Shown here: one piece after another, positions 26,585 through 45,906 of the stretch
Layout: the number at the start of each line of letters is the position of its first letter
Numbering within the stretch: position 1 is the first letter of the stretch
The notes under the pieces: model-generated
Told to the model about the DNA's origin: nothing
Database searches by the model: none
The model's input: only the letters and a program-made list of their open reading frames with translations
From: Geomonas agri
Lineage (GTDB): Bacteria > Desulfobacterota > Desulfuromonadia > Geobacterales > Geobacteraceae
Assembly: GCF_020179605.1 (NCBI RefSeq)
Contig: NZ_JAINZO010000001.1
Span: 186,001-250,000, forward strand
Length of the DNA stretch: 64,000 bases
Direction: 5' to 3'
Program-made: the position numbers and the translations under genes

Positions 26585-27259
26585 TTACAGTTTGTTCTCG
26601 GACATCTTTTGCAGAAGGTCCTGCCACAGCCTGAGCCGGCTGGATTTGCCGGCGGCCTTGCCCATCCCCCTTTGCTTGGCGAGCCACAGCCCGGAGCCGT
26701 TGAAGCTCAAAATCGGCATCAGGTCGTTGCGCTTGGAGGCGTGATCTATGGAGTCGACCAGGTTGTCGAGCACGAGCGGCTCGGCCTCGGGGGTGCTGTA
26801 GTAGGTGAGTACCATGTGGTGGACGTTGAGGCGCAGCGCTCTGACGTAGGTGATGCGGAGCTTGTCGTCCTCCACCCCCATCGCTTTCAGGGTGAAGTAC
26901 TTGGCGATGGCGAAGTCCTCGCAGTCCCCCGCCCCCTTGGCCAGAAACTCGATCGGCGTGGCCCAGTAGTCCTCGACCCCCCAGACTTCCCAGTCGCTGG
27001 CGAAGCGGATCCTCTCGTTGAAGAAGCGGTTCACCTTGTCGAGCTTGTCCCGGTCGGTGTGGCTCTTGTCCCGCGCGATGAGCTCCTCCCACGCGGTCAG
27101 GCGGCGCAAGGCTTCCCTGCCGTACTTCCTCTCGGCCGTTTGCAGCACCGAGCGGTCGACGCTGAAGTTGCCGGCGGGGAGCACGGTGCCGGTAACAACA
27201 AGCGCTGCCAGCACGGCGGCCAGGGAAAGCGATGTCAGTCGTTTCAGGTAGATGCCCAC
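26585..27259 (-). CDS. lapG: LapG-like periplasmic cysteine protease
   Basis: The 224-aa transglutaminase-like protease (BTLCP family) has an N-terminal signal segment (LTSLSLAAVLAALVVTGTVL). The catalytic triad is visible as Cys113 in KGAGDCEDFA, His148 in NVHHMVLTY and Asp165 in PLVLDNL. The acidic residues next to the Cys (DCED) are the calcium-binding positions of LapG. In Pseudomonas fluorescens, LapG cuts the adhesin N-terminus at a TAAG-type site unless sequestered by LapD with c-di-GMP. A PAAG site is present in the adhesin of this window. The gene lies between lapE and lapD. Confidence 0.92.
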   Translation of the reverse strand: MGIYLKRLTSLSLAAVLAALVVTGTVLPAGNFSVDRSVLQTAERKYGREALRRLTAWEELIARDKSHTDRDKLDKVNRFFNERIRFASDWEVWGVEDYWATPIEFLAKGAGDCEDFAIAKYFTLKAMGVEDDKLRITYVRALRLNVHHMVLTYYSTPEAEPLVLDNLVDSIDHASKRNDLMPILSFNGSGLWLAKQRGMGKAAGKSSRLRLWQDLLQKMSENKL

Positions 27260-27362: not shown

Positions 27363-28685
27363 CTACGGCGTTCCGGCGGCCGTGGTCACCTTACCGTTGT
27401 AGTCGGGAGCCTGCAGCCCCAGGGTGGGGAGCAGGCGGGACATGCCGTTCAGCACCCGGAACTCGGCGTAGCGCTGGTCGTACTGTGCGTTGACCAAGCT
27501 CGCCTTGGCGTTGATCAGCTCGGCCTGGGTGTCCAGAAGGTCAAACATGGTCCTTCTGCCGATGGACCACTGGGCGGCGAAGGCGTCGGCGGTCTGGCCG
27601 GCGGCCTTGACGTAGTCCTCGAGGTACTTGATGCGCTCCTGGGCGGAGCGGTTGGCCTCCCAGGAGAGACGGATCGACTGCACCGTCTGGCGCTTGGTGT
27701 TCTCGAGGATTTCCTCCGCCTCGTACACCTCGCTCTGGGTCTGGCCGATGCGCGCCTTGTTCCAGCCGCCGTTGAGGATGTTGAAGGTGAGGGTGGCGGT
27801 GCCGAGGAACTCCTCGCGCTGGCCGGGGAGGTCGTTGTAGTCCTTGAGCCAGCGGTAGTCCAGGGCCACGTCGAGGCTCGGGTAGAGCAGGCTCTTGGCC
27901 GCCTCGTGCTGCGCGGTCCTCTCCTGCACCCCTTCGCGGGCGGACTTGAGCGCCTGGTTACCGCCGACGGCCAGTTCCTCCGCCTCGTCCTTGTTCTTCG
28001 GGAGCAGCGCCACGACCGACTGCGGTTCGGTCAGTTCGCCGGGGACGTAGCCGATCACCGCCTGGTAGTCGGCGAGGCTGTCGGAGAGGTTGGCCTGGGC
28101 CGCGGCGAGGTTGCTCTCGGCGAGCGCCACGCGTCCCTTGACCTGTTCGAAGTCGGCGCGGCGGTCGACGCCGGACTCGCTTCTCAGCTTCACCTGGTCA
28201 TGGATGCGCAGGTGGTTGGTCAGGTTCTCTTGGGCCAGCGCCAGCAGTTTCTCGCTTCTCAATACGTTGATGTACACCTTGGAGGCCAACAGGGCGTTGT
28301 TCTCGGCGGAACTCCCCAGTTGGTACTGCTGGGCACGGGCCCGGGCCTCCTGGCGCTCCACTTCGCTTTGGGTGCCGAAGAAGCGGAAGACGTTCTGACG
28401 CACGCTCACGATGGCCGTGTTGGGGTAGACGGTACCGAAGGTCGGCTCGTGCTGGCGGGTCACCCCGGCTGCCAGCGAGACGTCCATGGTGGGGAGATAG
28501 CCGGCCTTGGCCTGGCGCACTTCCTTCTCCCGCGCCACCTTGTTGTAGTAGTTCGCCCTCACTTCCGGGTTGGAGCGCAGCATGTACTGCACCGCGTCCT
28601 GGAGCGTCTCCGCCTGGGCGGCTGCGACTCCGGACACCAACATCCCCAATGCCAATACTGTCACTAATTTCTTGTTTTGTGGCAT
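27363..28685 (-). CDS. lapE: TolC-family outer-membrane efflux protein (LapE)
   Basis: The 440-aa protein has a signal peptide (VLALGMLVSGVAAAQA) and two OEP repeats. The first starts 'LQDAVQYMLRSNPEVRAN' and the second contains 'ALKSAREGVQERTAQHEAAK'. The intervening sequence 'SLAAGVTRQHEPTFG' fits the beta strand of the barrel, and the long coiled helices fit the periplasmic tunnel. It would form the trimeric outer-membrane channel of the LapBCE type I system. In LapA-type export the adhesin is retained in this pore by its N-terminal plug. A good promoter lies upstream (28756-28784), so it heads the lapE-lapG-lapD group. Confidence 0.9.
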   Translation of the reverse strand: MPQNKKLVTVLALGMLVSGVAAAQAETLQDAVQYMLRSNPEVRANYYNKVAREKEVRQAKAGYLPTMDVSLAAGVTRQHEPTFGTVYPNTAIVSVRQNVFRFFGTQSEVERQEARARAQQYQLGSSAENNALLASKVYINVLRSEKLLALAQENLTNHLRIHDQVKLRSESGVDRRADFEQVKGRVALAESNLAAAQANLSDSLADYQAVIGYVPGELTEPQSVVALLPKNKDEAEELAVGGNQALKSAREGVQERTAQHEAAKSLLYPSLDVALDYRWLKDYNDLPGQREEFLGTATLTFNILNGGWNKARIGQTQSEVYEAEEILENTKRQTVQSIRLSWEANRSAQERIKYLEDYVKAAGQTADAFAAQWSIGRRTMFDLLDTQAELINAKASLVNAQYDQRYAEFRVLNGMSRLLPTLGLQAPDYNGKVTTAAGTP

Positions 28686-28755
28686 AGCACCCCTTCCTGT
28701 GGTCTCATATTAATTGAAACAAATTAAAATAACTCAATGTATATGCGGTTGATCC

Positions 28756-28784
28756 ATTATATACCGAGTAGTTGCTAATGTCGA
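28756..28784 (-). promoter_or_regulatory. Promoter of lapE-lapG-lapD
   Basis: On the minus strand TCGACA (28784-28779), a 17-nt spacer and a perfect TATAAT (28761-28756) stand about 70 nt before the lapE ATG. The surrounding 302-bp intergenic region is strongly A+T-rich compared with its neighbours. Confidence 0.65.
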
Positions 28785-28811
28785 TACACATATTATGTTC
28801 GAATAATAAAT

Positions 28812-28840
28812 TTGCAAATACTATTTTTTATGTCTAATAT
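28812..28840 (+). promoter_or_regulatory. Promoter of the ompA-exbBD-like operon
   Basis: TTGCAA (28812-28817), a 17-nt spacer and TAATAT (28835-28840) form a good sigma-70-type promoter. It is divergent from, and about 30 bp away from, the lapE promoter, so one regulator could control both. The leader to the TTG start would be about 140 nt. Confidence 0.6.
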
Positions 28841-28987
28841 ATGTCCCGCCGCGAGCCAAACATAAAGAATCAGATGGCATTTGACACGGCGGAATTTAAT
28901 AGTAGCTTAATAGTACCTTTTGGCAAGCCCGTGAGAGTAAAGCAGTAATTTAATGCAATCTAATAAAACCCAAACGGAGAAGAAGAT

Positions 28988-31330
28988 TTGAAACGACATG
29001 CATTGGTGATGATGGCAATGGCGTTGCTTCTCGCCTCCCGTCCCGGTCCGTCGGCGGCAGCCGACGCACCGCCAGGAGGGAGCCCGGCAAGCAACAGGGT
29101 GGGGACATTCTCGATATCCCCTATGGTCGGTGGGGTTTCCTTTGACGGGGAACAACACCTTGAAACCGCGCCGGTATTTGGCCTGCGCGCCGGCTACAAC
29201 TTCACCCGCAACCTGGAGGCGGAGGCGCTCTTCGACTACGCCAAGACCCGCTCCACGCTCACCGACAGGACCACGGACTTCCTGCGCTACGGGGCGGACC
29301 TGCTGTGGAACTTCCAGCCCGACGAGAAGTTCGTACCCAACATCGCCGTTGGGTACGCCGGCAACCAGCTGAAGTCGGACACCAAGGGTGCCTTCGACTT
29401 GGGCGCCGGCTTCAAGTACTTCGTGACCGAGGACATGGCCTGGCGCGGCGACGTGCGGGGCATCTTCATCGACAACAAGATCGATCGCTACGCCATCGAG
29501 TACACCACCGGGATCTACATCCCCTTCGGTGTGACCCCGCCGGTGGCGAAGCTCCCGGCACCGCCGCCGCCACCTGAACCGGTAGCGCGCCCGGTCCCCG
29601 CGGCGCAGCCGACCCTTAACCTGACGGTGCCGCCGCCGGCACCGGTACCGGTGGCCGCTCCCGAGGTTTCGCTCACTGCCGCTCCCGACAGCATCAAGAA
29701 AGGCGAGAAGTCGGTGCTGACCTGGCAGAGCAAGCGGGCCGACAATTGCGAGATGCGCCCCGAGGTCGGCAAGGTGGCCGCCAGCGGTTCCACCACCGTC
29801 AGCCCGGCGGCCGACACCATCTATACCATCACCTGCCAGGGCAAAGGGGGCACCGCTTCCGCAAACGCCTCGGTCATGGTGGCACAGCCGGCGGCAGCGG
29901 AGAAACGCTTCTGCAACCAGCCCGCGGTGCTGATGATCAACTTCGACACCGACAAGTGGAACGTGAAGCCGCAGTACCACGCCGAGCTGAAGACGGTGGG
30001 CGACTTCCTGAACGAGTTCCCCGAGGCCCACGGCGAGATCTCCGGCCACACCGACGGAACCGCCAGCGTCGCCTACAACCAGAGGCTCTCCGAGCGGCGC
30101 GCCCAGTCGGTGCGCGACTACATCGTCAAGAACTTCAACATCGATCCCAAGCGGCTCACCTCCAAGGGGTACGGCAAGTCCCGCCCGGTAGCCACCAACA
30201 AGACCGCCGTGGGGCGCGCTAAGAACCGTCGCATCGAGGCCAACCTCGTGTGCGAGAAAAACGGTGCCCCGAAGGGAGCGGCAGCCCAGCCGGCAGCAGC
30301 CTCCAAAGCTGCGGCGAAGCCCGCAGCAAAGAAAGGTGCTACTGGAAAAAAGCCGTTAGCCCTGGTGCCAGCGCAAGGTAACGTCGCCAACAGCGACGTT
30401 GCCCCTGCACAACGCCAGGGCGAACCCGAAGCACGTTTTTTCCCGCAGGCCGCCGATCCGGGTGTGACCGCATCCGGATCGGCCCTCCTGCCCGCAGCAC
30501 AAAGAAAGGGGGAAGAGGAACCACGCTACTTCCCCCAGGCAGCAGCAGCCGAAGTGAAGGAGGGGGCTGTGTCCCCTCCGCTTCCCCCGGCCAAGCGCCA
30601 GGCACCCGACATGGCTGCCTACCCGGACCAGCCGCCTCAGCAGTCGGTGCCGGCGGTACCGGTGCCGGGTAGCGTCCCGGCGGCGCAGATGGTGCCGTCC
30701 CCCGGTCCCCTGGTCGATGGAGCCGCGCCGGCGGCCATGATCGCCAAGGCGCCGACACCGCCGGAGCTGCCGGCGGCACAAAGAATGAAGCAGGCAGCCC
30801 TGCCTACCCCCGATACCCCCGCCACCGCAGCGCCGAACGCGCTCCCCGCCCCCTCCGTCGCGCCGGCCGCACCCGAACAGGCTGCCGCTACCGAAGCAGC
30901 ATCCGTCGCTTCCGCACTCAGAAAGCAGGAGCCCGAAGCACCGGCTCCCGATGAAGCGCCCTTCGTGCTCAAGGCCACCACCCCCACCCCCGTGCCCGAT
31001 GGCCGGATCGCCCTGACCGGCATCACCATCGACAAGGACGGCCTCAGCCTGTACACGAGCGGCAAGGTGAGCGAATTCAGCCTGATCACCATGGTTGAGC
31101 CCTTCAGCCTGGTCATCGACCTCTACGGCGCGGTAAACGGCATCGGCCTTCCCAAGGCGCCGGTGGAGAAATTCGACCTCACCAACGTTCGTTTCAGAGA
31201 GTTCCCCGACCACCTCCAGATCACCCTCGACGCCGGCCGGGAGGAAATAATCCCCTACCGCAGCTTCAAAACCGACACCGGGTTGAGGATCAATATCAAG
31301 CCGAGAAGCAGTCACCACATAGGCCCCTGA
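28988..31330 (+). CDS. Outer-membrane OmpA-family protein with C-terminal AMIN-like domain
   Basis: The 780-aa protein has a signal peptide and an OmpA-like barrel (about residues 38-182). A short Pro-rich linker and an Ig-like domain follow (about 215-300, 'IKKGEKSVLTWQSKRADNC'). The OmpA peptidoglycan-binding domain (about 310-425) has 'INFDTDKWNVKPQYHAEL', 'ISGHTDGTASVAYNQRLSER' and 'GYGKSRPVATN'. A Pro/Ala-rich region (about 430-670) carries repeats of 'AQRxGExExRxFPQAA' form. The C-terminal segment (about 675-778, 'IALTGITIDKDGLSLYTSG') resembles an AMIN domain, which also binds the cell wall. Two wall-binding modules in one outer-membrane protein is unusual. The TTG start follows GGAGAAGAAGAT and gives the expected MKR signal start. 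It heads a six-gene operon with ExbB/ExbD/TonB-like genes. Confidence 0.85.
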   Translation: MKRHALVMMAMALLLASRPGPSAAADAPPGGSPASNRVGTFSISPMVGGVSFDGEQHLETAPVFGLRAGYNFTRNLEAEALFDYAKTRSTLTDRTTDFLRYGADLLWNFQPDEKFVPNIAVGYAGNQLKSDTKGAFDLGAGFKYFVTEDMAWRGDVRGIFIDNKIDRYAIEYTTGIYIPFGVTPPVAKLPAPPPPPEPVARPVPAAQPTLNLTVPPPAPVPVAAPEVSLTAAPDSIKKGEKSVLTWQSKRADNCEMRPEVGKVAASGSTTVSPAADTIYTITCQGKGGTASANASVMVAQPAAAEKRFCNQPAVLMINFDTDKWNVKPQYHAELKTVGDFLNEFPEAHGEISGHTDGTASVAYNQRLSERRAQSVRDYIVKNFNIDPKRLTSKGYGKSRPVATNKTAVGRAKNRRIEANLVCEKNGAPKGAAAQPAAASKAAAKPAAKKGATGKKPLALVPAQGNVANSDVAPAQRQGEPEARFFPQAADPGVTASGSALLPAAQRKGEEEPRYFPQAAAAEVKEGAVSPPLPPAKRQAPDMAAYPDQPPQQSVPAVPVPGSVPAAQMVPSPGPLVDGAAPAAMIAKAPTPPELPAAQRMKQAALPTPDTPATAAPNALPAPSVAPAAPEQAAATEAASVASALRKQEPEAPAPDEAPFVLKATTPTPVPDGRIALTGITIDKDGLSLYTSGKVSEFSLITMVEPFSLVIDLYGAVNGIGLPKAPVEKFDLTNVRFREFPDHLQITLDAGREEIIPYRSFKTDTGLRINIKPRSSHHIGP

Positions 31331-31407
31331 CGCGGCGCGCAGGCGCGCACCCGGCAGCGGCTCACGATACATGCTCTAAGTAGCTCATCCGTAAGGAGGA
31401 GTCTGAC

Positions 31408-31950
31408 ATGGACCACGGTATTGCATTGCGATGGAAACAGGCTGTCGTAGTGACGGGATTGGTGTCTCTTCTGGCCGCGCCGGCGCTTTTTGCCGCCGAG
31501 GCGCAGCCCCCCGCCCCCCCGCAGGAAGCACCCACCGAGCAGGCGAGCGACCTGGGCCTCGAGCTCAGGTTACAGACGGTGAAGAAGGACCTCCTGGTCA
31601 TGCTCAACTTCGCCGAGCACTTCATCGCCAGCGGCGAGACCAAGACCGCCGCACAGCTGCAGGCACCCCTCGACGACTACCTAAGGCGCCACGCCGACTA
31701 CCTGGTGACCCAGGCGGTGGACGGCTCCAACATCGAGATGACCCAGCTTTCTGCCGAGATCGCCCTGGTGAAGACGCGCCTTCTGATCGTGCTCAACTAC
31801 CGTGACGATGCCGGCAGCGTGCTCACCGAGATGAAGTCGCTCTACGCTCCCTACCAGAAGATGTCGGTGCAGATCCAGGGCAAGACCACCACGCTGGACG
31901 AAGCCATCCGCCAGTTGGACACCGACCTGGCACGCATCGCCAAGAAATAA
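31408..31950 (+). CDS. Exported protein of unknown function
   Basis: The 180-aa protein has a signal sequence (WKQAVVVTGLVSLLAAPALF, cleavage after FAA), a short Pro-rich linker and an all-helical body, including 'LGLELRLQTVKKDLLVMLNF' and 'DEAIRQLDTDLARIAKK'. No family is recognised. It is placed between the OmpA-AMIN gene and the ExbB-like gene, 19 bp before the latter. GTAAGGAGGAGTCTGAC precedes the ATG. It may be a periplasmic component of the same complex, inferred from operon position only. Confidence 0.7.
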   Translation: MDHGIALRWKQAVVVTGLVSLLAAPALFAAEAQPPAPPQEAPTEQASDLGLELRLQTVKKDLLVMLNFAEHFIASGETKTAAQLQAPLDDYLRRHADYLVTQAVDGSNIEMTQLSAEIALVKTRLLIVLNYRDDAGSVLTEMKSLYAPYQKMSVQIQGKTTTLDEAIRQLDTDLARIAKK

Positions 31951-31969
31951 CCGCCAAGGAGCCGCCACC

Positions 31970-32545
31970 ATGGACATTCTGGGCCTGATCACCATCAACC
32001 CCAACAGCTTCAACATCTGGTCGCTGAGAGTCTCGCTTACCCTGACCACCAGCATCTTCATCATCGCCATGATCCTCGCGGTGCGGGCTTTCCAGCACGC
32101 CAAGGCGCTGGACCACAAGCACCTGGACAGCGTCAAGGACCAGCACGCAACCCCTGGGGACACCCTTTCCGAGAGCGTTGCCAAGATGCTTTGGGCCACC
32201 AGCCAAAGCGACAACACCACCGGTGCGGCGGCCCCCAAGGAGTTCCTCTACGACGCGACCCGCGAGGTGGCACAGAATAACTTCAACGGCACCTTCGTAA
32301 ACCGCATCTACATGTGCGCCAACCTGCTGCCTCCTATAGGGCTGTGGGGGACCGTTGCGGGGATGATCGTCATCTTCCTCTACACCGGCGACCCGGGGAG
32401 CGCCATCAACAACGGCGCCATCGGGGCGAAGCTGTGGTCCACCTACTTCGCGCTCATGTACTACGTGCTGTTGCAGGCCATCTGCGTCGGCCTCGACGTG
32501 ATCGCCAAGCGCTCCATCAACCGCGGCCTGCAGGTGAAGATCTAG
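31970..32545 (+). CDS. MotA/TolQ/ExbB-like proton channel protein
   Basis: The 191-aa protein has three membrane segments (about residues 19-44, 106-131 and 147-172), with a cytoplasmic loop between the first two. This is the TolQ/ExbB topology. The second helix contains 'PPIGLWGTVAGMIVIF', a close match to the family's GLLGTVxGM motif including the channel Thr. The third contains 'KLWSTYFALMYYVLLQ'. Such proteins form a pentameric channel around an ExbD/TolR dimer and convert proton flow to mechanical work. The next gene encodes an ExbD-like partner. The sequence is too divergent to be a housekeeping TolQ or ExbB, so a dedicated function is likely. Confidence 0.82.
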   Translation: MDILGLITINPNSFNIWSLRVSLTLTTSIFIIAMILAVRAFQHAKALDHKHLDSVKDQHATPGDTLSESVAKMLWATSQSDNTTGAAAPKEFLYDATREVAQNNFNGTFVNRIYMCANLLPPIGLWGTVAGMIVIFLYTGDPGSAINNGAIGAKLWSTYFALMYYVLLQAICVGLDVIAKRSINRGLQVKI

Positions 32546-32554
32546 GAGGGGACC

Positions 32555-33025
32555 ATGCGCTCGGTGGGAACTTCGAGGAACCAGTGGCTCATCTCGTTCA
32601 CCGACGTCGCCTTTTTGCTGCTGCTGGTGTTCACGCAGATGGCGCGTATGGACACCTCCAGTAGCCAAGTGGCGGAGATGCAGCTCCCCGCACCGGTGGT
32701 GGCCAAGAGCCCCGAGCTGGTGGCGATGCAGTCCAACCCCGACTACCACCAGCTCCTGGTGGAGAAGCACGGGGCGAAACCGTACCGGCTGGCGCACATC
32801 GTGCGCGGCAAGGAGGCGGCGCGCACCGACCCGCTTTGCTATGACGAGCTTTGCTCGGCGCTCAAGCACCTGCAGGGAAACCGGGAGCAGCCGCGCCCGG
32901 TCGTGGTGCCGCTGCCCGAGTCTTACAGCAGCGACCTTCTCTCCGCGGCGGCGGTGGTGAGCAAGTACTGGAGCTCCAACGGCCTTGCGGTGGTGCACAC
33001 GTCACGTACCGGGGACAAGCCATGA
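32555..33025 (+). CDS. ExbD/TolR-like protein
   Basis: The 156-aa protein has a single N-terminal membrane helix with the diagnostic membrane Asp (Asp17) in 'WLISFTDVAFLLLLVFTQMA', matching the ExbD/TolR 'xDVxxxLLxxF' motif. The remainder is periplasmic and contains two Cys (LCYDELC) that could form a disulfide. The Asp residue is the proton carrier in this family. Length and plan agree with ExbD, but the N-terminal cytoplasmic tail is short. It lies 9 bp after the channel gene and overlaps the next gene by 4 nt. Confidence 0.82.
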   Translation: MRSVGTSRNQWLISFTDVAFLLLLVFTQMARMDTSSSQVAEMQLPAPVVAKSPELVAMQSNPDYHQLLVEKHGAKPYRLAHIVRGKEAARTDPLCYDELCSALKHLQGNREQPRPVVVPLPESYSSDLLSAAAVVSKYWSSNGLAVVHTSRTGDKP

Positions 33026-34134
33026 CCCTGCGCATCCAGAACGCCTGCGGCCACGGCGGCACGCGGCTTCGGCACATCCTGGTCTGCGCCGAGCACGAAC
33101 TGCGCCCTCCGGTGCCATTGTGGCTGCGCCTGGTGGTGGTGACTGCGCTGGGGCTGGTGGCATTGTGTGTGAGCCGCTTCCAGATGCCGGGGGCGCCGGT
33201 CTCCAAGCGCACCATCATGGACGTGAGCCGGCTGGAGCTGCAGGCTCCCCCGGCGCACCCGAAGCAGGTGCCCCCCATGGAGAAGCCGGTGGTGGCGCAG
33301 CAAAAGCCGCGCACCGTGTATGCGCTGGACGTGAAGCCGCCGCAGTACCGCCCGCCGGTATCGGTGGACCGGGAGCATCCAGGGGAGCCCGGGCGGACGA
33401 AGAGCGCGCCGCTTCGGCACGAACTGGACTACTCCGCGGAGCAGCCCCGCCCCGCCATCGCCCGTTCCTACGGCTACCAGAGCGGATCGGAGGTGTACAT
33501 GTACCCGACGGTATCCCGGGAGCGCAAGGGGACGGAACCGTTCGACCTCGCCGCGGGCGATGCCGCCGCGCGGGTCCCGGCCACGAGGTTCAGGAAGGAA
33601 GCGAGTGCCGAGGTGGGGGCGCGGCCGACACCCAAGAGCACCTACATCTACCGGGTGCGGGGTGGGCCAGTGAGTGCCGTTGCCGTCGACGACCCGGTCG
33701 CCCGGCCGCAGCGCCCGATTCGCGCCGTCGAGGTGGGGGGGAGCGCAGCGGCACCTCGAGTGGCGGCGGTCAGGAGTGCACCGGAAGTGACCATCGAGGA
33801 GCCCAAGGGGGCGCAGCCCCTGACGGCACGGCAACGCAGCAAGAGCCCCGCCGGAAGCGGAGCGGGCGGGTCTGAAGTGGCACTGGCGCGCGGAGTCTCG
33901 CTGATGAGCCTCAAGATCTGCGACAGCGCGCTGCAGCAGGAGGAAGCGATCAAGGCGGTTTTGAGCGTGGTAGGAGCGCGCGCAAGCTGCACCAGTGACA
34001 AAGGTGAGTTCCAGTTCAAGGGGACCAAACGCGTATCGTCCTTCAACCTCATGATCTACCCGTCCAGGGGACGAGAGCCATCCCAGCGATGCGAGGAGTT
34101 GGATTATGCCTACGACTGCCTTAAGAAGAACTGA
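33022..34134 (+). CDS. TonB-like single-pass envelope protein
   Basis: The 370-aa protein has one membrane helix near the N-terminus (about residues 34-52, LWLRLVVVTALGLVALCVS). A long Pro/Arg-rich periplasmic region follows, and then a small C-terminal domain with three Cys (KICDSAL, RASCTSD, SQRCEEL). The plan is that of TonB or TolA: inner-membrane anchor, extended linker, compact tip. The canonical TonB C-terminal motif is absent, so the target is unlikely to be a standard TonB-dependent receptor. The start is the ATG overlapping the exbD-like stop (ATGA). An open frame extends further upstream but lacks a ribosome site. The 3' end overlaps the next gene by 29 bp. Confidence 0.75.
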   Translation: MTLRIQNACGHGGTRLRHILVCAEHELRPPVPLWLRLVVVTALGLVALCVSRFQMPGAPVSKRTIMDVSRLELQAPPAHPKQVPPMEKPVVAQQKPRTVYALDVKPPQYRPPVSVDREHPGEPGRTKSAPLRHELDYSAEQPRPAIARSYGYQSGSEVYMYPTVSRERKGTEPFDLAAGDAAARVPATRFRKEASAEVGARPTPKSTYIYRVRGGPVSAVAVDDPVARPQRPIRAVEVGGSAAAPRVAAVRSAPEVTIEEPKGAQPLTARQRSKSPAGSGAGGSEVALARGVSLMSLKICDSALQQEEAIKAVLSVVGARASCTSDKGEFQFKGTKRVSSFNLMIYPSRGREPSQRCEELDYAYDCLKKN

Positions 34135-36079
34135 CGCCAGACGGATCATCGCATTCATCTTCTGCTGCCTGCTGTGCCTGCTGATGGCGGCCGCCCCCTC
34201 CTGGGGCGCCCAAAAGAAGAAGCACGCCGCACCGGCCAAGAAGCAGTATAAAACGGCCGCCGTAGCCGCCCCGGCCGCCGCTCCCCAGGTCAAGGAGTGG
34301 GGGCCCTACCTCGACGTCGCCTACGAGCTCACCTACTGGGACAAGAACGAGATCAAGGAGTGGCGTGAAAAGCGCGACCAGGAGATCGGCGAAACGCTTG
34401 CCTCCTACATCGCCACTTGGAACGGCAAGCTGATGGCGGTGCAGAAAGGGGAACAGCCGCAGTTGTTCCGCGACCGGGACTACCTGCGCCTCGCCATTGC
34501 CCAGACCATCGATTACCTGCAAACCGACGCCCCGGAGAGCCTGGCAGCCGCGGCCAAGACCATGGAGAGTCTGAAGGGTAAGGCATCCATGCCCGAGGTT
34601 GCCTACTGGTCCGGCATGGTGAAGGCGCTGCAGGCACTGGAGCGTGATGACGCCGACGACTTCGTCACCCAGGTCTACGGCATCTGGAACGGATCGATCC
34701 TCTACATAGAGAAGAACGAAATTGCCACCGGCGCGACCAGCGGCAGCGTCCCTACCAACACCCCCTTCTACTACCGCAACCTGATCAGCCTGGTAGTGAA
34801 CCGGGCCATCATCGCACGGAAGCTGGACGGTCTTAACGCGCTGGGGCCCCTGTTCGTGATGATGAACGAGCGCAACCTCGGCGAGAAGGACAGCGAAGGG
34901 AAGTACACCAAGACCCTGGTGCAGCGTATCGTGGACGGGCTGAACGCGCCCGACTCGGACCGCTTCCGGCTGAACTTCACCGTCGCCGCCATCGAGTCCA
35001 AACGCCTGCAGCAGGTGGCAAGCGCCAAGCTCGATGCCGAGGGGATGACCGAGGCGGTTCAAAAGACCTACGAGCGGGCCAGGACCTACAACGACCTCTG
35101 CTTCAAGTGGGCGGCGGGCCCGAGGTCGAGCGGCGTGGTCATGGCGGCGGTGGACTACCTGGACATGACCAGTTTCGCCATCCCGCGCCTGGCCGACAAC
35201 GAGAACGCGGCCGCCTACAAGTTCTTCGCGACGCTGCCGGACCAGGAGGGGAGGAGTGCCCTCCTGAAGTCGATGGCGATCTTCAACGACATCGCGCCGT
35301 ATTCGGCGGGGGGGTGGGAGCGCGCCGGCTACCAAAGCCGCGAGCTGTATCTCAAGTCGGCGCACCGGCTCTGGCGGGCCATCATGGAGCTTGCCCTGTG
35401 GACCGGCGACTTCTACCTGGTCAAGCTGAACACCACCCAGGACTCGCAGAATATCCAGAGTTACGCGACCTCGATGCAGATGGCGCTCAATTCCTACCTG
35501 AACTTCCTCACCGCGCAGCAGGGTAGGGGATACAACGACGTGATCCCGGATTCCGCCTACTTCGGTGCCTTCGAGGCGAGCGACAAGGTTTCCTACGCCT
35601 ACCGCAAGGTGAGTGAGTTCAGCACCGACAACGGCGCCTACAACCTGTGGTTCACGCACCGGCTCCTTTCCGCCGAACTGTTCCCGCTTTCGTTGCGTGA
35701 GGTGCGCCAGACCTCCGCCACACTCAAGAAGGACGGGCGCTACAACCTGTACCTCGACTACTACCTGCCGCTGGCCAGTCGCATCAAGCAGTCACCGGCG
35801 ATCAAGAAGTGGGTGAGCGCGCAGCGCCCCGAGACGGCGACGGCGAGTCTTGCTTACATCACCGCTATCGACAAGCTTTTTGCCGGCACCGCGGCCGCCG
35901 ACGCGCCCTCGGACACCCAGCTGATCGCATCGTTCCAGAGCATGCGCGAAGAGATGCAGAGGAATCCGGACCACCCGACCCACAACCTGTTGAAGCTCTT
36001 CTACCTGGAGGAGATCCAGAAGAACTCCAACTTCACCAAGCTGGTCAAGGAGCCCAACCGTCTGGACCGGCCATTCTAA
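34106..36079 (+). CDS. Large exported helical protein of unknown function
   Basis: The 657-aa protein has a signal peptide with a long hydrophobic core (IIAFIFCCLLCLLMAAAPSW), then a Lys/Ala-rich linker (about residues 36-60) and a mostly alpha-helical body of about 590 residues. No catalytic motif or known domain was recognised. It begins inside the end of the TonB-like gene (29-bp overlap), so translation is coupled. It ends the operon and is followed by a hairpin repeat and a terminator, and then the adhesin gene. It may be the periplasmic or outer-membrane partner of the ExbBD-TonB-like unit. That is inference from position and export signal. Confidence 0.75.
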   Translation: MPTTALRRTDARRIIAFIFCCLLCLLMAAAPSWGAQKKKHAAPAKKQYKTAAVAAPAAAPQVKEWGPYLDVAYELTYWDKNEIKEWREKRDQEIGETLASYIATWNGKLMAVQKGEQPQLFRDRDYLRLAIAQTIDYLQTDAPESLAAAAKTMESLKGKASMPEVAYWSGMVKALQALERDDADDFVTQVYGIWNGSILYIEKNEIATGATSGSVPTNTPFYYRNLISLVVNRAIIARKLDGLNALGPLFVMMNERNLGEKDSEGKYTKTLVQRIVDGLNAPDSDRFRLNFTVAAIESKRLQQVASAKLDAEGMTEAVQKTYERARTYNDLCFKWAAGPRSSGVVMAAVDYLDMTSFAIPRLADNENAAAYKFFATLPDQEGRSALLKSMAIFNDIAPYSAGGWERAGYQSRELYLKSAHRLWRAIMELALWTGDFYLVKLNTTQDSQNIQSYATSMQMALNSYLNFLTAQQGRGYNDVIPDSAYFGAFEASDKVSYAYRKVSEFSTDNGAYNLWFTHRLLSAELFPLSLREVRQTSATLKKDGRYNLYLDYYLPLASRIKQSPAIKKWVSAQRPETATASLAYITAIDKLFAGTAAADAPSDTQLIASFQSMREEMQRNPDHPTHNLLKLFYLEEIQKNSNFTKLVKEPNRLDRPF

Positions 36080-36148
36080 TGCAGTCTTAAAAGTGCCGTA
36101 CGTGCCCAGCGTCCCTCGCTGCCCACCAAGCGACGTCCGCGAACAAGC

Positions 36149-36216: not shown

Positions 36217-36250
36217 AAAAAGCCCTCCATGTCACGGAGGGCTTTTTTTT
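36217..36250 (+). terminator. Terminator of the ompA-exbBD-like operon
   Basis: AAAAAGCCCTCC (36217-36228) and GGAGGGCTTTTT (36236-36247) form a 12-bp stem with a 7-nt loop, and more T residues follow. It separates this operon from the adhesin gene. Confidence 0.9.
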
Positions 36251-36287: not shown

Positions 36288-36473
36288 ATCCACTCTCATT
36301 GTGCTTTCAGGCGTCATGTTAAAACAAAGTGAGATTTATGTAATCTTGATCACTATGTCAGTGTAGTACCAAGGTACAATAGACATGCTTTACCCTCAGA
36401 GATATCTTTACCATAACCAAATTTAGCAGCTCCCTCTCACGCCTCACTATCATAGATACAATGGAGAATGGTC

Positions 36474-39400
36474 ATGGCACAGAACAATCAGGCAGCAGGG
36501 CACCAGGTGGTCGGTAAGGTTGTCATTCTGTACGGCACGGTGAAAGCTATATCCCCCGATGGCGCGGTTCGTCTGCTCATGCCGAACAGCCCGATCTTTG
36601 CCGATGACCGCATCGTCACCGAGAGCGACGGCAGCGCGTCCATCGTGTTCGACGGCGCGCAGGGGAACCAGCTTGACCTGGGCCGGATGATGAACGTCAC
36701 CATCGACCACGACGTTTACGGCACCGTCATGTCGGGTGATACCACGGATACCACCGCCGAGGTGGCCCAGATCCAGCAGGCATTGCTTACCGGCGATCAG
36801 CCCATCGAACTGGAAGCCCCGGCAGCCGGCGGCCCCGCCGATGCCGGCGGTACCCACCCGGTCTTCATCGTTACCCCCACCGGCGAGGAGGTTCTCCCCA
36901 CCGGCGGCGTCACCACCACCGGTGTCACCTTCGGGACGACTGGGACCCTCGATTCAGTCATTACCACGGTTCCAACGCCGCCGCTCACGGCAACCATAAC
37001 CGTCAATCCCATTACCAGTGACAACATCGTCAACAACGTCGAAGCTACCGGCCAGATCCCTGTCTCCGGTACCGTCGGAGGCGATGCCCACCCGGGTGAC
37101 ACGGTCACCATCGTGATCAACGGCAACACCCATACCGGCACCGTTGCCGGCGACAACTCCTACATCATCAACGTACCGGGATCCGAACTGGTCAACAACC
37201 CGAACCAGGTCATCACTGTCAGCGTCACCACCACCGGGCCCAACGGCAATACCGCCACCGCGGTCGTCACGCCTACCTACACGGTGGACACGACCACGGC
37301 TGACATCCACATCACGAGCATCGCCGGTGACAACATCGTCAACAACGTTGAAGCGGGCAATGCCAACGTCCCGGTGACCGGTACCTTTGGCGGCGGTGTT
37401 CATGCCGGTGATGTCATCACTCTCACCGTCGGCGGCCAGACCTACAGCCACACCGTGACCGATGCCGATGTCAGCAGCCACAGCTTCATCGTCAATGTTT
37501 CCGGTGCGGACCTGACCAACAACGCAGGCCACGCCATCACCGCTTCGGTATCGACCACCGATGTGGCTGGCAGCACCGCGAGCGCCAGCGACACCGCGGG
37601 TTACACTGTCGACAATACCACCGCGGAGATCAGCATAACGAGCATCGCCGGTGACAACATCGTCAACAACGCCGAGGCGGGGAGCACGACTGTCCCGGTA
37701 ACCGGCACCATCGGTGGCGGAGTCCATGCCGGCGACGTGATCATCCTGACCATCGGGGAGCATACCTACACCCACACCGTCACGGACGCCGATGCCGGCA
37801 GCCACAGCTTCACCGTGAACGTTCCCGGCAGTGACCTGACCGGCAACGCGGGGCACCAGGTCACTGCCTCGGTGACGACGACCGACGCGGCAGGGAGCAC
37901 GGCGAGCGCCTCGGCCGTTGGTGAATATACCGTCGATTCGACGGTTGAGACTCACGTCGATACCGCTCACTCTGTCGGCAGCGTCGACGAGGGCGCCTTG
38001 GCCGGGGGGAGCCATCCCGGTACCGGCTACATCGCCGAGGGGAGCCTTGTTTCCAGCGGCGGTACCGGTTCTTACACCTACGCCCTGGTGTCCGACTCGG
38101 TCGCGCACGAGGGTACCCTGGTCATCGACCCGGCCACTGGTCATTACACCTACACCTTGAATGGTCCGACGCTCACCAACAGCCCGGATACCTTCACCTA
38201 CCAAGTGACCGACGCCCACGGCAACACGGCGACCAACACGGTTACCATTACCATCGCCGATGACGCTCCGATCGCTAACGCCGACAGCGGCAGCGTGGTC
38301 GAAGGCGCAATCCTGTCCGGCAGCGTGGTCGGCAACGACATACCGGGCGCCGACGGCTCCGTCGTCGTGGTCGGTGTGGCGGCAGGCGTCAGTGCGACGG
38401 CGGTGAGCGGCCAGGTGGACAGCGTCATCACCGGAGCCCACGGCACCTTGACCCTGCATGCGGACGGCAGCTACGACTACCACGCCAACCCGAACAGCGA
38501 GAACACCAGCGATACCTTCACCTACACCATTCAGGATGCCGATGGCAGCAAGTCCACCAGCACCCTGACCGTCAACCTGACCGATAGCGGCCTCCATACC
38601 CAGCTCGATACGCTCACTTCCGTCACCGGTGTCGACGAGGGCGCCCTTCCGGTGGGGAGCCACCCGGGCAGCGGCTACATCGCCGAAGGGAACCTGATCT
38701 CCACCGGCGGCGCCGGCCCCTACAGCTACGCGCTGGTCTCCGACTCGGTAGCCCACGAAGGGACCTTGGTCATCGATCCGGCTACCGGGCATTACACCTA
38801 CACCCTGAGCGGCCCGACCGGCACCAACACCCCGGATAGCTTCACCTACCAGGTGACCGACGCGTACGGAAACACGGCGACCAACACGGTGACCATCACT
38901 GTCGCCGATGACGCGCCGGTGGCCAACGTCGACAGCGGCAGCGTCATGGAAGGGGCGACCGTGGCTGGCAGCGTGGTCACTAACGACGTCCCGGGTGCCG
39001 ACGGTGTGGCCCCCGGCTCCATCGTCGTGGTAGGTGTGGCGGCAGGCGTCAGCGCGACGGCGGTGAGCGGCCAGGTGGACAGCGTCATCACCGGTGCCCA
39101 CGGCACCTTGACCCTGCACGCGGACGGCAGCTACGACTACCACGCCAACCCGAACAGCGCCAACACCAGCGACACCTTCACCTACACCATCCAGGATGCC
39201 GACGGCAGCAAGTCCACCAGCACGCTGACCGTCAACCTGACCGACAGCGGCCTGCATACCCAGCTCGATACGCTCACTTCCGTCACCGGTGTCGACGAGG
39301 GCGCCCTGCCGGTGGGGAGCCATCCGGGCAACGGCTACATCGCGGAAGGGAACCTGGTCTCCACCGGTGGCGCCGGCTCGTACACCTACGCCCTGGTCTC

Positions 39401-42400
39401 CGACTCGGCCGCCCACGAAGGGACGCTGGCCATCGACCCGGCTACCGGGCATTACACTTACACCCTGAGCGGCCCGACCGGCACCAACGCCCCGGACACC
39501 TTCACCTACCAAGTGACCGACTCCAACGGCAACACCTCGACGAACACGGTGACCATCACCATTGCCGATGACGCGCCGGTGGCCAACGTCGACAGCGGCA
39601 GCGTGGTGGAAGGCGCGTCCGTGTCCGGTAGCGTGGTCGCTAACGACGTACCGGGTGCCGACGGTGTGGCCCCCGGCTCCATCGTGGTGGTCGGCGTGGC
39701 GGCAGGCACCAGCGCCACGGCGGTCAGCGGCCAGGTGGACAGCGTCATCACTGGCGCCCACGGCACCCTGACCCTGCACGCGGACGGCAGCTACGACTAC
39801 CACGCCAACGCGAACAGCGCCAACACCAGCGACACCTTCACCTACACCATCCAGGACGCCGACGGCAGCAAGTCCACCAGCACGCTGACCGTCAACCTGA
39901 CCGACAGCGGCCTGCACACCCACGTCGACACGCTCACTTCAGTCACCAGCGTCGACGAGGGCGCCCTGCCGGTGGGCAGCCACCCGGGCAGCGGCTACAT
40001 CGCGGAAGGGAATCTGGTCTCCACCGGCGGCGCTGGGTCTTACACCTATGCCCTGGTCTCCGACTCGGCCACCCACGAGGGGACGCTGGTGATTGATCCG
40101 GCCGGGCACTACACCTACACCCTGAACGGCCCGACGCTCACCAACAGCCCGGACACCTTCACCTACCAGGTGACCGATGGGGAGGGGAATACCTCGACCA
40201 ACACGGTGACCATCACCATCACCGATGACGCGCCGGTGGCACAGATCGACAGCGGCAGCGTGGTTGAAGGCGCGACCCTTTCCGGCAGCGTCGTCACCAA
40301 CGACATCCCGGGAGCGGACGGCTCGATCGTCGTGGTAGGCGCTGCGGCCGGTGTCAGTGCAACGGCGGTCGCCGGGCAGGTGAATAGCGTCATTACCGGC
40401 GCCCATGGCACCCTGACCCTGCACGCTGACGGCAGCTACGACTACCACGCCAACCCGAACAGCGACAACACCAGCGACACCTTCACCTACACCATCCAGG
40501 ATGCTGACGGCAGCAAGTCCACCAGCACGCTGACCATCAACCTGACCGACAGCGGGCTGCACACCCAGGTCGATACCGTTCATTCCGACACCAGCGTCGA
40601 CGAGGGCGCCCTCTCCGTTGGCAGCCACCCTGGCAGCGGCTACATCGCCGAAGGGAACCTGATCTCCAGCGGCGGCGCCGGCTCCTACAGCTACGCCCTG
40701 GTTTCCGACTCCGCGACTCACGAAGGGACCCTGGTCATCGACGCCAACGGGCATTACACCTACACCCTGAACGGCCCGACGCTCACCAACAGCCCGGACA
40801 CCTTCACCTACCAGGTCACCGACGCCCATGGCAACACCGCCACCAACACGGTGACCATCACCATCGCCGATGACGCGCCGGTGGCGCATACCGACAGCGG
40901 CAGCGTCATGGAAGGCGCGACCCTCTCCGGCAACGTGGTCGCTAACGACGTACCGGGCGCCGACGGCGTGGCCCCCGGCTCCATCGTGGTGGTCGGTGTG
41001 GCGGCAGGCGTCAGCGCGACGGCGGTGAGCGGGCAGGTTGACAGCGTCATTACCGGCGCCCACGGCACCCTGACCCTGCACGCGGACGGCAGCTACGACT
41101 ACCACGCCAACCCGAACAGCGACAACACCAGCGACACCTTCACCTACACCATCCAGGATGCCGACGGCAGCAAGTCCACCAGCACCCTGACCGTCAACCT
41201 GACCGACAGCGGGCTGCACACCCAGGTGGACACCGTTCATTCCGACACCAGCGTCGACGAGGGCGCCCTGCCGGTGGGCAGCCATCCGGGTACCGGCTAC
41301 ATCGCCGAAGGGACCCTGGTCTCGACCGGCGGCGCCGGCTCCTACAGCTACGCACTGGTCTCCGACTCGGCGACTCACGAAGGGACCCTGGTCATCGACG
41401 CCAACGGGCATTACACCTACACCCTGAACGGCCCGACGCTCACCAACAGCCCGGACACCTTCACCTACCAGGTCACCGATGCCTACGGCAACACGGCAAC
41501 CAACACGGTGACCATCGCTATCGCCGATGACGCGCCGGTTGCCAACACCGACACCGGCAGCGTGGTGGAAGGCGCGACCCTCTCCGGCAGCGTGGTCACT
41601 AACGACATCCCGGGCGCCGACGGCTCCATCGTCGTGGTGGGAGCTGCCGCCGGTACCAGCGCGACGGCGGTAAGCGGGCAGGTCGATTCCGTGATCACCG
41701 GTGCTCACGGCACCCTGACGCTGCACGCCAACGGAAGCTACGAGTACCACGCCAACCCAAACAGCGAGAACACCAGCGACACCTTCACCTATACCATCCA
41801 GGATGCCGACGGCAGCAAGTCCACCAGCACCCTGACCGTCAACCTGACCGACAGCGGGCTGCACACCCAGGTCGACACCCTCACCTCCGTCACCAGCGTC
41901 GACGAGGGCGCCCTGCCGGTGGGTAGCCATCCGGGCAGCGGCTACATAGCAGAAGGGAACCTGGTCTCGACTGGCGGCGCCGGGTCTTACTCCTACGCCC
42001 TGGTCTCCGACTCGGCCACCCACGAGGGGACCCTGGTCATCGATGCGGACGGGCATTACACCTACACCCTGAACGGCCCGACGCTCACCAACAGCCCGGA
42101 CACCTTCACCTACCAGGTCACCGACGCCAACGGCAACATCGCCACCAACACGGTCACCATCACCATCGCCGATGATGCCCCGGTGGCCAACGTTGACAGC
42201 GGCAGCGTGGTGGAAGGCGCGGCCCTCTCCGGCAGCGTGGTCACTAACGACATCCCGGGCGCCGACGGTTCCATCGTCGTGGTCGGCGCAGCCGCAGGCG
42301 CCAGCGCGACCGCAGTGAGCGGCCAGGTGGACAGCGTCATTACCGGCGCCCACGGCACCCTGACCTTGCACGCCAACGGCAGCTATGAATATCACGCCAA

Positions 42401-44063
42401 CCCCAACAGCGCGAACACCAGCGACACCTTCACGTACACCATTCAGGACGCTGACGGCAGCAAGTCCACCAGCACGCTGACCATCAACCTGACCAACAGC
42501 GGGCTGCACACCCAGGTCGATACGGTCCACTCCGACACCACCGTTGACGAGGGCGCCCTGTCTGTCGGCACCCACCCAGGTACCGGCTACATCGCAGAAG
42601 GGACCCTGATCTCCAGCGGCGGCGACGGCTCCTACACCTACGCCCTGGTGCCCGACTCGGCCACCCACGAAGGGACCCTGGTCATCGACCCATCCACCGG
42701 CCATTACACCTACACCCTCAGCGGTCCGTCGAGCAGCGACAGCCCGGATACCTTCACCTTCCAGGTAACAGACGGCCACGGCAATACCGCAACCAACACC
42801 CTCACCGTAACCATCACTGATGACGCGCCGGTGTTGAATGTCACCAACGGTATCTTCCAAAACACCGGTGACACCGACACGACTGCTCATACCGGCGGCA
42901 CCATTGTCGAAGGCACCCTCGCCACTATCGGTGCCGATCTCAACAATGCGCATGTAACGCTGACGGGGACTCCGCCCAGTGGCCTTACCTCCTATGGCCA
43001 AGCTGTTACCTACAGCGTCTCGACGGACGGTTCTACCATCCATGCCACGGCCGACGGCCATGAGGTCTTCACATTGACCGCCCACTCGGATGGTACGTAC
43101 ACCTTCGACCAGCACCAAATGCTCGACCTCGCGGTACTGAACAGCAACCTGCAGGGGAGCATCGGGGCCGGCGGACCGCAGACCGCCTTCTACGTCTACA
43201 CCGACGGCTCTTCCGGGTTCGATGCCACCGCCAAGCCGTGGTCCCTCCAGATCACCGCCGACGGCCACAGCGTCAACCCGAGTACCCAGGGGATGGGGGT
43301 CGACAACAACTGGTTGAACCTCACCAGCAACGCCGGCACCACCGAAACCCTTCACTTCAACTTCGACAATGAAGGGGCCAGCGGTGCGGCTAACTTCGCC
43401 TACCAGGCCAAGATCGGGATTAACGATCTCGGCGCCGGCGAGAAGATCGTTTGGGATGCGACCTACACCGATGGGGCAGGACACACTTACACCGACCATG
43501 GCGAAGCGACCACCAGCAGCCTCGACTCCACGGGTCACCTGGTGTTCACTGCTCCGCAGAACAACATGTACATTGACCACATCGACTTCACCGGCGGTGC
43601 CGGCGCTGTGAGGGTCACTTCCTTCACCGCGTACACCATCGACACCAACGTGACCCAGACTCTGAACTTTGGCTTCACCGCGACCGACGGCGACGGCGAT
43701 CATGTCTCTGGCAACTTCAGTCTCCTGGCCCAGAACGGTTCCACCCTCACCGGCGACAGCAGCAACAATGCACTTGGCGGTGGCCATGGCGATAACGTCA
43801 TGTCTGGTGGGGCTGGGGCTGATATCTTTACGGTGAACGGCGGTAATGACACCATAAAAGACTTCACCGCCCATGTGGACAAGATCGTTATCGAGCAAAC
43901 CCACACCGATGGCCTGTTCCAACACACTGATGGATCCAACACGGCCACTCTGACGATCACCAATAACGGAACCCAGGTGGGGACTGTTACCTTTGAAAAC
44001 GTCACCGACGCAGGTGCTCTTTTGGATTCGTTGATTCACAACGATCCCAAAATCCATAGCTAG
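36474..44063 (+). CDS. lapA: Giant LapA-type RTX adhesin with VCBS-type tandem repeats
   Basis: The ~2529-aa surface adhesin starts at the ATG 36474 (GGAG lies 7 nt before it; an ATG two codons earlier is too close). Residues 1-110 form a LapA-type retention module ('QVVGKVVILYGTVKAISPDG', 'SPIFADDRIVTESDGSASIV'). A PAAG motif at 116-119 is a likely LapG cleavage site. Three Ig-like repeats of about 105 aa follow (about 175-490, each with DNIVNNVEAG-like starts). Then come seven and a half near-identical units of 215-220 aa (VDEGAL...DSGLHT). A unique C-terminal region ends in an RTX-like calcium-binding and secretion signal ('NNALGGGHGDNVMSGGAGAD', 'GGNDTIKDF'). There is no Sec signal; export is by LapBCE. 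It is transcribed alone between two terminators. Confidence 0.92.
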   Translation: MAQNNQAAGHQVVGKVVILYGTVKAISPDGAVRLLMPNSPIFADDRIVTESDGSASIVFDGAQGNQLDLGRMMNVTIDHDVYGTVMSGDTTDTTAEVAQIQQALLTGDQPIELEAPAAGGPADAGGTHPVFIVTPTGEEVLPTGGVTTTGVTFGTTGTLDSVITTVPTPPLTATITVNPITSDNIVNNVEATGQIPVSGTVGGDAHPGDTVTIVINGNTHTGTVAGDNSYIINVPGSELVNNPNQVITVSVTTTGPNGNTATAVVTPTYTVDTTTADIHITSIAGDNIVNNVEAGNANVPVTGTFGGGVHAGDVITLTVGGQTYSHTVTDADVSSHSFIVNVSGADLTNNAGHAITASVSTTDVAGSTASASDTAGYTVDNTTAEISITSIAGDNIVNNAEAGSTTVPVTGTIGGGVHAGDVIILTIGEHTYTHTVTDADAGSHSFTVNVPGSDLTGNAGHQVTASVTTTDAAGSTASASAVGEYTVDSTVETHVDTAHSVGSVDEGALAGGSHPGTGYIAEGSLVSSGGTGSYTYALVSDSVAHEGTLVIDPATGHYTYTLNGPTLTNSPDTFTYQVTDAHGNTATNTVTITIADDAPIANADSGSVVEGAILSGSVVGNDIPGADGSVVVVGVAAGVSATAVSGQVDSVITGAHGTLTLHADGSYDYHANPNSENTSDTFTYTIQDADGSKSTSTLTVNLTDSGLHTQLDTLTSVTGVDEGALPVGSHPGSGYIAEGNLISTGGAGPYSYALVSDSVAHEGTLVIDPATGHYTYTLSGPTGTNTPDSFTYQVTDAYGNTATNTVTITVADDAPVANVDSGSVMEGATVAGSVVTNDVPGADGVAPGSIVVVGVAAGVSATAVSGQVDSVITGAHGTLTLHADGSYDYHANPNSANTSDTFTYTIQDADGSKSTSTLTVNLTDSGLHTQLDTLTSVTGVDEGALPVGSHPGNGYIAEGNLVSTGGAGSYTYALVSDSAAHEGTLAIDPATGHYTYTLSGPTGTNAPDTFTYQVTDSNGNTSTNTVTITIADDAPVANVDSGSVVEGASVSGSVVANDVPGADGVAPGSIVVVGVAAGTSATAVSGQVDSVITGAHGTLTLHADGSYDYHANANSANTSDTFTYTIQDADGSKSTSTLTVNLTDSGLHTHVDTLTSVTSVDEGALPVGSHPGSGYIAEGNLVSTGGAGSYTYALVSDSATHEGTLVIDPAGHYTYTLNGPTLTNSPDTFTYQVTDGEGNTSTNTVTITITDDAPVAQIDSGSVVEGATLSGSVVTNDIPGADGSIVVVGAAAGVSATAVAGQVNSVITGAHGTLTLHADGSYDYHANPNSDNTSDTFTYTIQDADGSKSTSTLTINLTDSGLHTQVDTVHSDTSVDEGALSVGSHPGSGYIAEGNLISSGGAGSYSYALVSDSATHEGTLVIDANGHYTYTLNGPTLTNSPDTFTYQVTDAHGNTATNTVTITIADDAPVAHTDSGSVMEGATLSGNVVANDVPGADGVAPGSIVVVGVAAGVSATAVSGQVDSVITGAHGTLTLHADGSYDYHANPNSDNTSDTFTYTIQDADGSKSTSTLTVNLTDSGLHTQVDTVHSDTSVDEGALPVGSHPGTGYIAEGTLVSTGGAGSYSYALVSDSATHEGTLVIDANGHYTYTLNGPTLTNSPDTFTYQVTDAYGNTATNTVTIAIADDAPVANTDTGSVVEGATLSGSVVTNDIPGADGSIVVVGAAAGTSATAVSGQVDSVITGAHGTLTLHANGSYEYHANPNSENTSDTFTYTIQDADGSKSTSTLTVNLTDSGLHTQVDTLTSVTSVDEGALPVGSHPGSGYIAEGNLVSTGGAGSYSYALVSDSATHEGTLVIDADGHYTYTLNGPTLTNSPDTFTYQVTDANGNIATNTVTITIADDAPVANVDSGSVVEGAALSGSVVTNDIPGADGSIVVVGAAAGASATAVSGQVDSVITGAHGTLTLHANGSYEYHANPNSANTSDTFTYTIQDADGSKSTSTLTINLTNSGLHTQVDTVHSDTTVDEGALSVGTHPGTGYIAEGTLISSGGDGSYTYALVPDSATHEGTLVIDPSTGHYTYTLSGPSSSDSPDTFTFQVTDGHGNTATNTLTVTITDDAPVLNVTNGIFQNTGDTDTTAHTGGTIVEGTLATIGADLNNAHVTLTGTPPSGLTSYGQAVTYSVSTDGSTIHATADGHEVFTLTAHSDGTYTFDQHQMLDLAVLNSNLQGSIGAGGPQTAFYVYTDGSSGFDATAKPWSLQITADGHSVNPSTQGMGVDNNWLNLTSNAGTTETLHFNFDNEGASGAANFAYQAKIGINDLGAGEKIVWDATYTDGAGHTYTDHGEATTSSLDSTGHLVFTAPQNNMYIDHIDFTGGAGAVRVTSFTAYTIDTNVTQTLNFGFTATDGDGDHVSGNFSLLAQNGSTLTGDSSNNALGGGHGDNVMSGGAGADIFTVNGGNDTIKDFTAHVDKIVIEQTHTDGLFQHTDGSNTATLTITNNGTQVGTVTFENVTDAGALLDSLIHNDPKIHS
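36816..36830 (+). other. Predicted LapG cleavage site in the adhesin
   Basis: The codons for A-P-A-A-G (residues 115-119) lie just after the retention module, in a flexible Gly/Ala/Pro stretch. LapG proteases cut between the two alanines and the glycine of (T/P/A)AAG-type sites. Position, composition and the presence of lapG in the locus support the assignment. Confidence 0.6.
37983..42840 (+). repeat. Tandem repeat array within the adhesin gene (7.5 units of ~650 bp)
   Basis: The VDEG codons begin at 37983, 38631, 39291, 39951, 40596, 41253, 41898 and 42543, giving periods of 648, 660, 660, 645, 657, 645 and 645 bp, all multiples of three. Each unit has two parts: one ending in ITIADDAPVA and a second from DSGSVVEG to NLTDSGLHT. 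Length differences come from presence or absence of VAPG after GADG and of PATG versus AN or AD before GHYTYTL. The last unit is only the first part. Units are very similar at the DNA level, so recombination could change copy number. Confidence 0.9.
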
Positions 44064-45905: not shown

Positions 45906-45906
45906 C

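Follow-up and report, generated by a model that had tools for sequence, protein, structure and literature searches.

Few systems are known that carry energy from the inner membrane to the outer membrane (OM). In the Tol-Pal system, a motor pair is combined with a single-TM transducer that spans the periplasm, a periplasmic partner and a wall-binding OM protein, the lipoprotein Pal. The Ton system shares the motor family and the transducer topology. The Agl-Glt machinery of Myxococcus xanthus is described, in the available text of PMC3169522, as composed of a TolQR-type motor and of exported TPR-type, TonB-like and OM-type proteins, and its core complex is reported there in Geobacter as well. 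A further kind of transducer, with a two-Rossmann vWA fold, has been found near tolQR-like genes, i.e., as a new transducer on a tolQR-like motor accompanied by a periplasmic partner gene (available part of PMC12204202). Finally, the LapA-type adhesin cluster bpf of Shewanella contains an OmpA-family gene, SO4321, and the portion of its description available mentions no motor genes (PMC4523816). The locus analyzed here is located in a stretch of 64,000 nucleotides of Geomonas agri (assembly GCF_020179605.1, contig NZ_JAINZO010000001.1, positions 186,001 to 250,000), referred to below as the window. We read it as a self-standing, Tol-Pal-like and proton-powered trans-envelope force system that would act on a wall-anchored OM barrel, and we give this reading a probability of about 0.5.

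The module comprises six co-oriented genes on the + strand (28988 to 36079), coding for an OM protein (OMP), p180, an ExbB-like, an ExbD-like and a TonB-like protein, and p657. Upstream and divergent from it are found lapE, lapG and further T1SS/Lap genes (among them, judged by position, the presumed lapB, lapC and lapD), while a giant adhesin is located downstream. The features are as follows:

26585..27259, - strand: neighbor, lapG cysteine protease (NF045674, 3e-79, under the curated cut-off)
27363..28685, - strand: divergent neighbor outside the module, lapE, TolC-type (Pfam/NCBIfam search)
28988..31330, + strand: OMP, with a barrel (aa 34-161), an OmpA domain (319-414), a Pro/Ala-rich linker and an AMIN-like C-terminus (about 665-770)
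31408..31950, + strand: p180, a small exported protein with a hydrophobic N-terminal segment, not assigned to any known family and with clear relatives in Geobacterales
31970..32545, + strand: ExbB/TolQ-like motor subunit, 3 TM, GLWGTVAGM at aa 124-132
32555..33025, + strand: ExbD/TolR-like subunit, whose single TM contains D17 (Pfam ExbD match of 0.0019, under the cut-off)
33022..34134, + strand: TonB/TolA-plan transducer, one TM (33-51), Pro-rich span, four-Cys C-terminal domain
34088..34134, + strand: coupling site, where the RCEEL codons at the end of the overlap partner, the TonB-like gene, contain the ribosome-binding site of p657
34106..36079, + strand: p657, a large protein, exported and not assigned to any known family
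36217..36250, + strand: intrinsic-type terminator after p657 (GCCCTCC-loop-GGAGGGC-T run), in 8/8 Geomonas rows aligned
36349..36386, + strand: conserved block upstream of the adhesin, near-invariant in 8/8 Geomonas rows
36468..44063, + strand: neighbor, adhesin, a giant repeat protein of 2531 aa that has an upstream region of its own

The six genes are a real unit, since their sequence and their order are kept in many genomes, which is more than chance would produce. An earlier sequence-only reading had proposed one operon with these six genes, and all six ORFs are indeed present and co-oriented, the ExbD-like and TonB-like genes overlapping by 4 nt. The two proteins that it considered exported and of no known family, p180 and p657, matched none of the Pfam and NCBIfam families at E<=1. 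Its general idea of a coherent proton-motor envelope system with an undescribed gene set also stands, in that the unit is conserved and no prior description of the gene set was recognized among the papers that searches of the open-licence PMC literature listed. The extent of the TonB-like gene had to be corrected to 33022-34134, so that it runs into p657. The divergent promoter that it had assigned to the operon was not recovered, and a consensus scan of 28686-28987 gave only minus-strand sites, on the lapE side.

The p657 of named Geomonas is 97% identical to that of the window, and p657 was found in 20/141 Geobacterales genomes (18/117 in a first, smaller set, in which the ExbB-like gene was present in the same 18). 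The order p180-ExbB-ExbD-TonB-p657 was maintained throughout the 19 loci read of these 20 carriers, i.e., 10 Lap-linked and nine others (G407 is cut inside ExbD, and the Lap-linked G030 was left out). Carriers were rare across the phylum (6/297 and 7/395 sampled genomes; G157, one of the seven, was set aside as a carrier). In three genomes, which come from two further classes, p657 is preceded by a motor and a TonB-plan gene. One of these genomes, G118, is the sole sampled one of its class and keeps the order ExbB-ExbD-TonB-p657 at 28-36% identity; the ORF preceding ExbB is truncated where the contig stops and is at most a putative p180. The other two, G158 and G193, are the only sampled genomes of the third class. 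Their p657 relatives, matched by profile at E values of 9.8e-69 and 5.1e-66, respectively, are placed after TolQ, a TolQ::TolR fusion and TolR (called by Pfam in G158) and after a TM protein. The C-terminus of this TM protein aligns with all four Cys of the transducer at 15-18% identity, and in the place of p180 there is a small exported protein that aligns at only 18-19% identity. Both proteins are too unlike to be found by tblastn, so that p657 and gene order are the main grounds for counting G158 and G193 as members. TolQ::TolR fusions were located at L105 1607-2911 and L106 4784-6103, in both cases next to unfused TolQ and TolR genes.

The ExbB-like protein of the window has three hydrophobic segments, as in the three-helix channel with GLWGTVAGM first proposed, and a Pfam MotA_ExbB match of 0.00094, below the cut-off. 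The family profile, which includes canonical TolQ-type rows from G158 and G193, reached the solved E. coli ExbB at 1.3e-9 over positions 18-180, with the TM2-TM3 core covered. T128 and T158 were invariant in 121/121 rows, made up of the window and of the 120 relatives that were listed among 126 found. In the ExbD-like protein, for which a membrane Asp had been claimed as well, this residue (D17 in the window) was retained in 13/13 loci read. We take T128, T158 and the TM Asp to be equivalent to the pore and proton residues of the E. coli motor. By sequence, both proteins can be assigned to the ExbB/TolQ/MotA-ExbD/TolR motor family, and a 5:2 assembly and proton flow are predicted for them.

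The transducer follows the TonB/TolA plan without the TonB end motif, as had been noticed before: a GHGGTRL segment ahead of the one TM, a Pro-rich middle, and no Pfam family at E<=1, so that neither a TonB C-terminal domain nor an FHA domain was matched. Its C-terminal domain (aa about 291-370) contains Cys 300, 323, 357 and 366, invariant in 17 aligned rows, which might form disulfides. AF2 gave a pLDDT of 90 or more from aa 291 and modeled an alpha-beta-beta-beta-alpha domain of ~80 residues, unlike the vWA fold of the transducers described in the available part of PMC12204202. The probability in hhalign against E. coli TolA was 0.2%, and TolA was absent among the structure matches listed, an absence that does not exclude kinship with TolA. 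An SHLS-type His (motif as given in the available part of PMC12204202) is absent from the TM of the window protein. The ExbB/ExbD/TonB plan would also suit a Ton-type transport system, in which an OM channel would be energized for uptake or export. However, besides the missing TonB domain match, no TonB-dependent receptor was found by Pfam among the window operon proteins and the partner in the OM is a small AMIN-bearing barrel, and we consider such a system very improbable.

The transducer gene is coupled to p657 by an overlap of 29 nt, which was found in 16/16 loci measured, G118 included (G006 and G073 fell outside this measurement); the two genes do not overlap in G158 and overlap by 4 nt in G193. 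p657 itself gave a weak match to a TPR protein and, in one search, weak PPR matches that a larger alignment did not reproduce; it possibly consists of helical repeats. In G073, and also in the database protein P0170, p657 is fused to an AMIN domain, which can be taken as the best direct hint that p657 may work together with AMIN. A paralogue of p657 (about 27-29% identity) is located directly downstream in five non-Lap genomes (L068, L070, L072, L073, L075), with a length of 850-888 aa in the four genes read.

The OMP is an exported protein of 780 aa with a TTG start at 28988, and had been proposed to be a wall-binding OmpA-AMIN protein. Pfam supports the OmpA part (5e-21) and adds a beta-barrel that had gone unnamed (OMP_b-brl, 3.9e-15). 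AMIN had no Pfam match in the window protein and is seen there by alignment of its C-terminus with relatives in which Pfam detects AMIN (down to 1.3e-12). AMIN domains are able to bind other partners too. A barrel+AMIN gene adjoins the module, on either strand, in G083, G423 and G006 (called by Pfam) and in G002, G036, G095 and G407 (called by alignment to the window OMP). The OmpA domain was present in 10/10 Lap-linked genomes examined (the window and nine others; the eleventh, G030, is outside this count), and had no phmmer match in the available stretches of the eight non-Lap genomes with a readable AMIN partner (G037 is cut). In one Geomonas (Red69), the OMP gene is split over two frames in the assembly (L006 4829-7224).

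Like Tol-Pal, the module has a motor pair, a single-TM transducer spanning the periplasm, a periplasmic partner and an OM protein presumed to bind the wall. It differs from Tol-Pal in the four-Cys domain of the transducer, which has no sequence match to E. coli TolA, in having p657 and p180 in an operon that, in the window, contains no TolB match (Pfam/NCBIfam), and in an anchor that is a beta-barrel with AMIN (plus OmpA in the window) and not a Pal lipoprotein. The same genome contains relatives of TolQ, TolR, TolB, Pal and CpoB elsewhere, which excludes that the module is a diverged sole Tol-Pal, and we do not claim that it belongs to Tol-Pal or Ton proper. We propose that the ExbB-like protein, expected as a pentamer, and the ExbD-like protein, expected as a dimer, would convert proton flow into motion; that the TM of the TonB-like protein would bind this motor, the rest spanning the periplasm, with its four-Cys domain acting on the translationally coupled p657; and that p657, together with p180, would handle the OM beta-barrel whose AMIN domain would grip the cell wall. 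As a result, the OM anchor might be seated, shifted or released while under load. In one clade of Geomonas, the operon has come to stand between the adhesin and lapE, and the OmpA domain is an addition to its anchor; in this clade the module may make the envelope stiffer at the site holding the adhesin. We see even odds that this is a further energized OM force class beside Ton, Tol and Agl-Glt, characterized by a four-Cys transducer, a p657 adaptor and a barrel/AMIN wall anchor as effector, which occurs in three classes within a single phylum and was recruited to an adhesin site on one occasion, in Geomonas and with OmpA. If so, the envelope tasks driven by the motor family would not be limited to nutrient uptake, division and gliding, and the module would offer a compact genetic unit for testing how force passes to a wall-binding OM protein.

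The sequence-only reading had suggested that the system could seat, retain, unfold or release the giant adhesin at LapE, or brace the OM against adhesive force. The lapE/operon/adhesin layout is identical in the Lap-linked Geomonas loci read, all LapG-bearing Geomonas contain the module (11/11) and all module-free ones are without a LapG match (7/7). The restriction of the OmpA domain to Lap-linked genomes, among those examined, points in the same direction, and the OmpA-like gene of the Shewanella bpf cluster affects biofilm (available part of PMC4523816). Accordingly, the co-occurrence with LapG systems that had been suggested as a check is seen within Geomonas, where 11/12 carriers have a LapG match (G073 has the module without it). 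However, it breaks down outside the Lap-linked Geomonas, where LapG was not found in 12/12 carriers, four of them under 90% complete (G037, G407, G193 and G118, 66-85%). Conversely, G017, G028, G043 and G115 have a LapG match with neither the ExbB-like protein nor p657; no LapG match anywhere, Geomonas included, reached the curated cut-off. In a tree of 22 rows, the 11 Lap-linked p657 proteins formed a single clade (support 100/100), and the Lap association is therefore one event. The claim that the operon ends right before the adhesin was correct in that the adhesin is the downstream neighbor, but a terminator and a conserved block lie in between. The scan lists the terminator hairpin on the minus strand only, the plus-strand stem having a T run behind it, and the conserved block is probably the adhesin's own promoter or regulatory region. 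Judged by the distribution of LapG matches, by the single clade and by the terminator ahead of the adhesin in 8/8 rows, a general adhesin role is not sustained and a dedicated helper of the adhesin appears unlikely. A secondary role in bracing the OM beside the adhesin is possible in the Lap-linked clade, because only the Lap-linked copies have the added OmpA domain.

Some other features were observed around the adhesin. A G/C-rich palindromic repeat (CCCCCC...GGGGGG type) is found at about 36100-36140 of the window, and in some Geomonas rows only. After the adhesin (44253-46617), the window codes for an XrtA/GspA-like ATPase (TIGR03015, 1.6e-81, under the cut-off) that has a peptidoglycan-binding domain, and this gene and the next one are found behind the adhesin in several Geomonas. 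In G. oryzae S43 (G069), the Lap+module block occurs twice (L123, L124); the two copies look almost identical, and both lie at the end of a contig.

The surroundings of the non-Lap copies bear on another explanation, an Agl-Glt/Nfs-like surface transporter in which the motor would drag OM proteins over the cell surface, together with the polymer or adhesin attached to these proteins. Polysaccharide genes are located near two copies (glycan genes in G083 and a Polysacc_synt_2 gene in G006), Agl-Nfs moves the spore coat polymer (available part of PMC3858216), and the types of protein that compose Agl-Glt are also those of the module. However, the Geobacterales loci read have one ExbD-type gene versus two TolR-type subunits (AglQ, AglS), the TonB-like protein lacks the FHA domain match expected from GltG, and GltC and GltD are proteins of 673 and 1191 aa, a comparison made with the description in the available text of PMC3169522 only. 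We regard such a transporter as a tentative and rather unlikely option, and keep the Tol-Pal-like force system as the preferred reading. Other neighbors were identified by eye: queD/queE-like genes in G002 and G006, a uvrD-like gene and, farther off, mreC/mreD-like genes in G423, and a mutS-like gene in G073. Since the non-Lap surroundings differ, they indicate no output. The queD/queE-like genes lie near the module in one genus (L068, L070), and que genes near tol-pal operons have been noted in the available part of PMC12204202.
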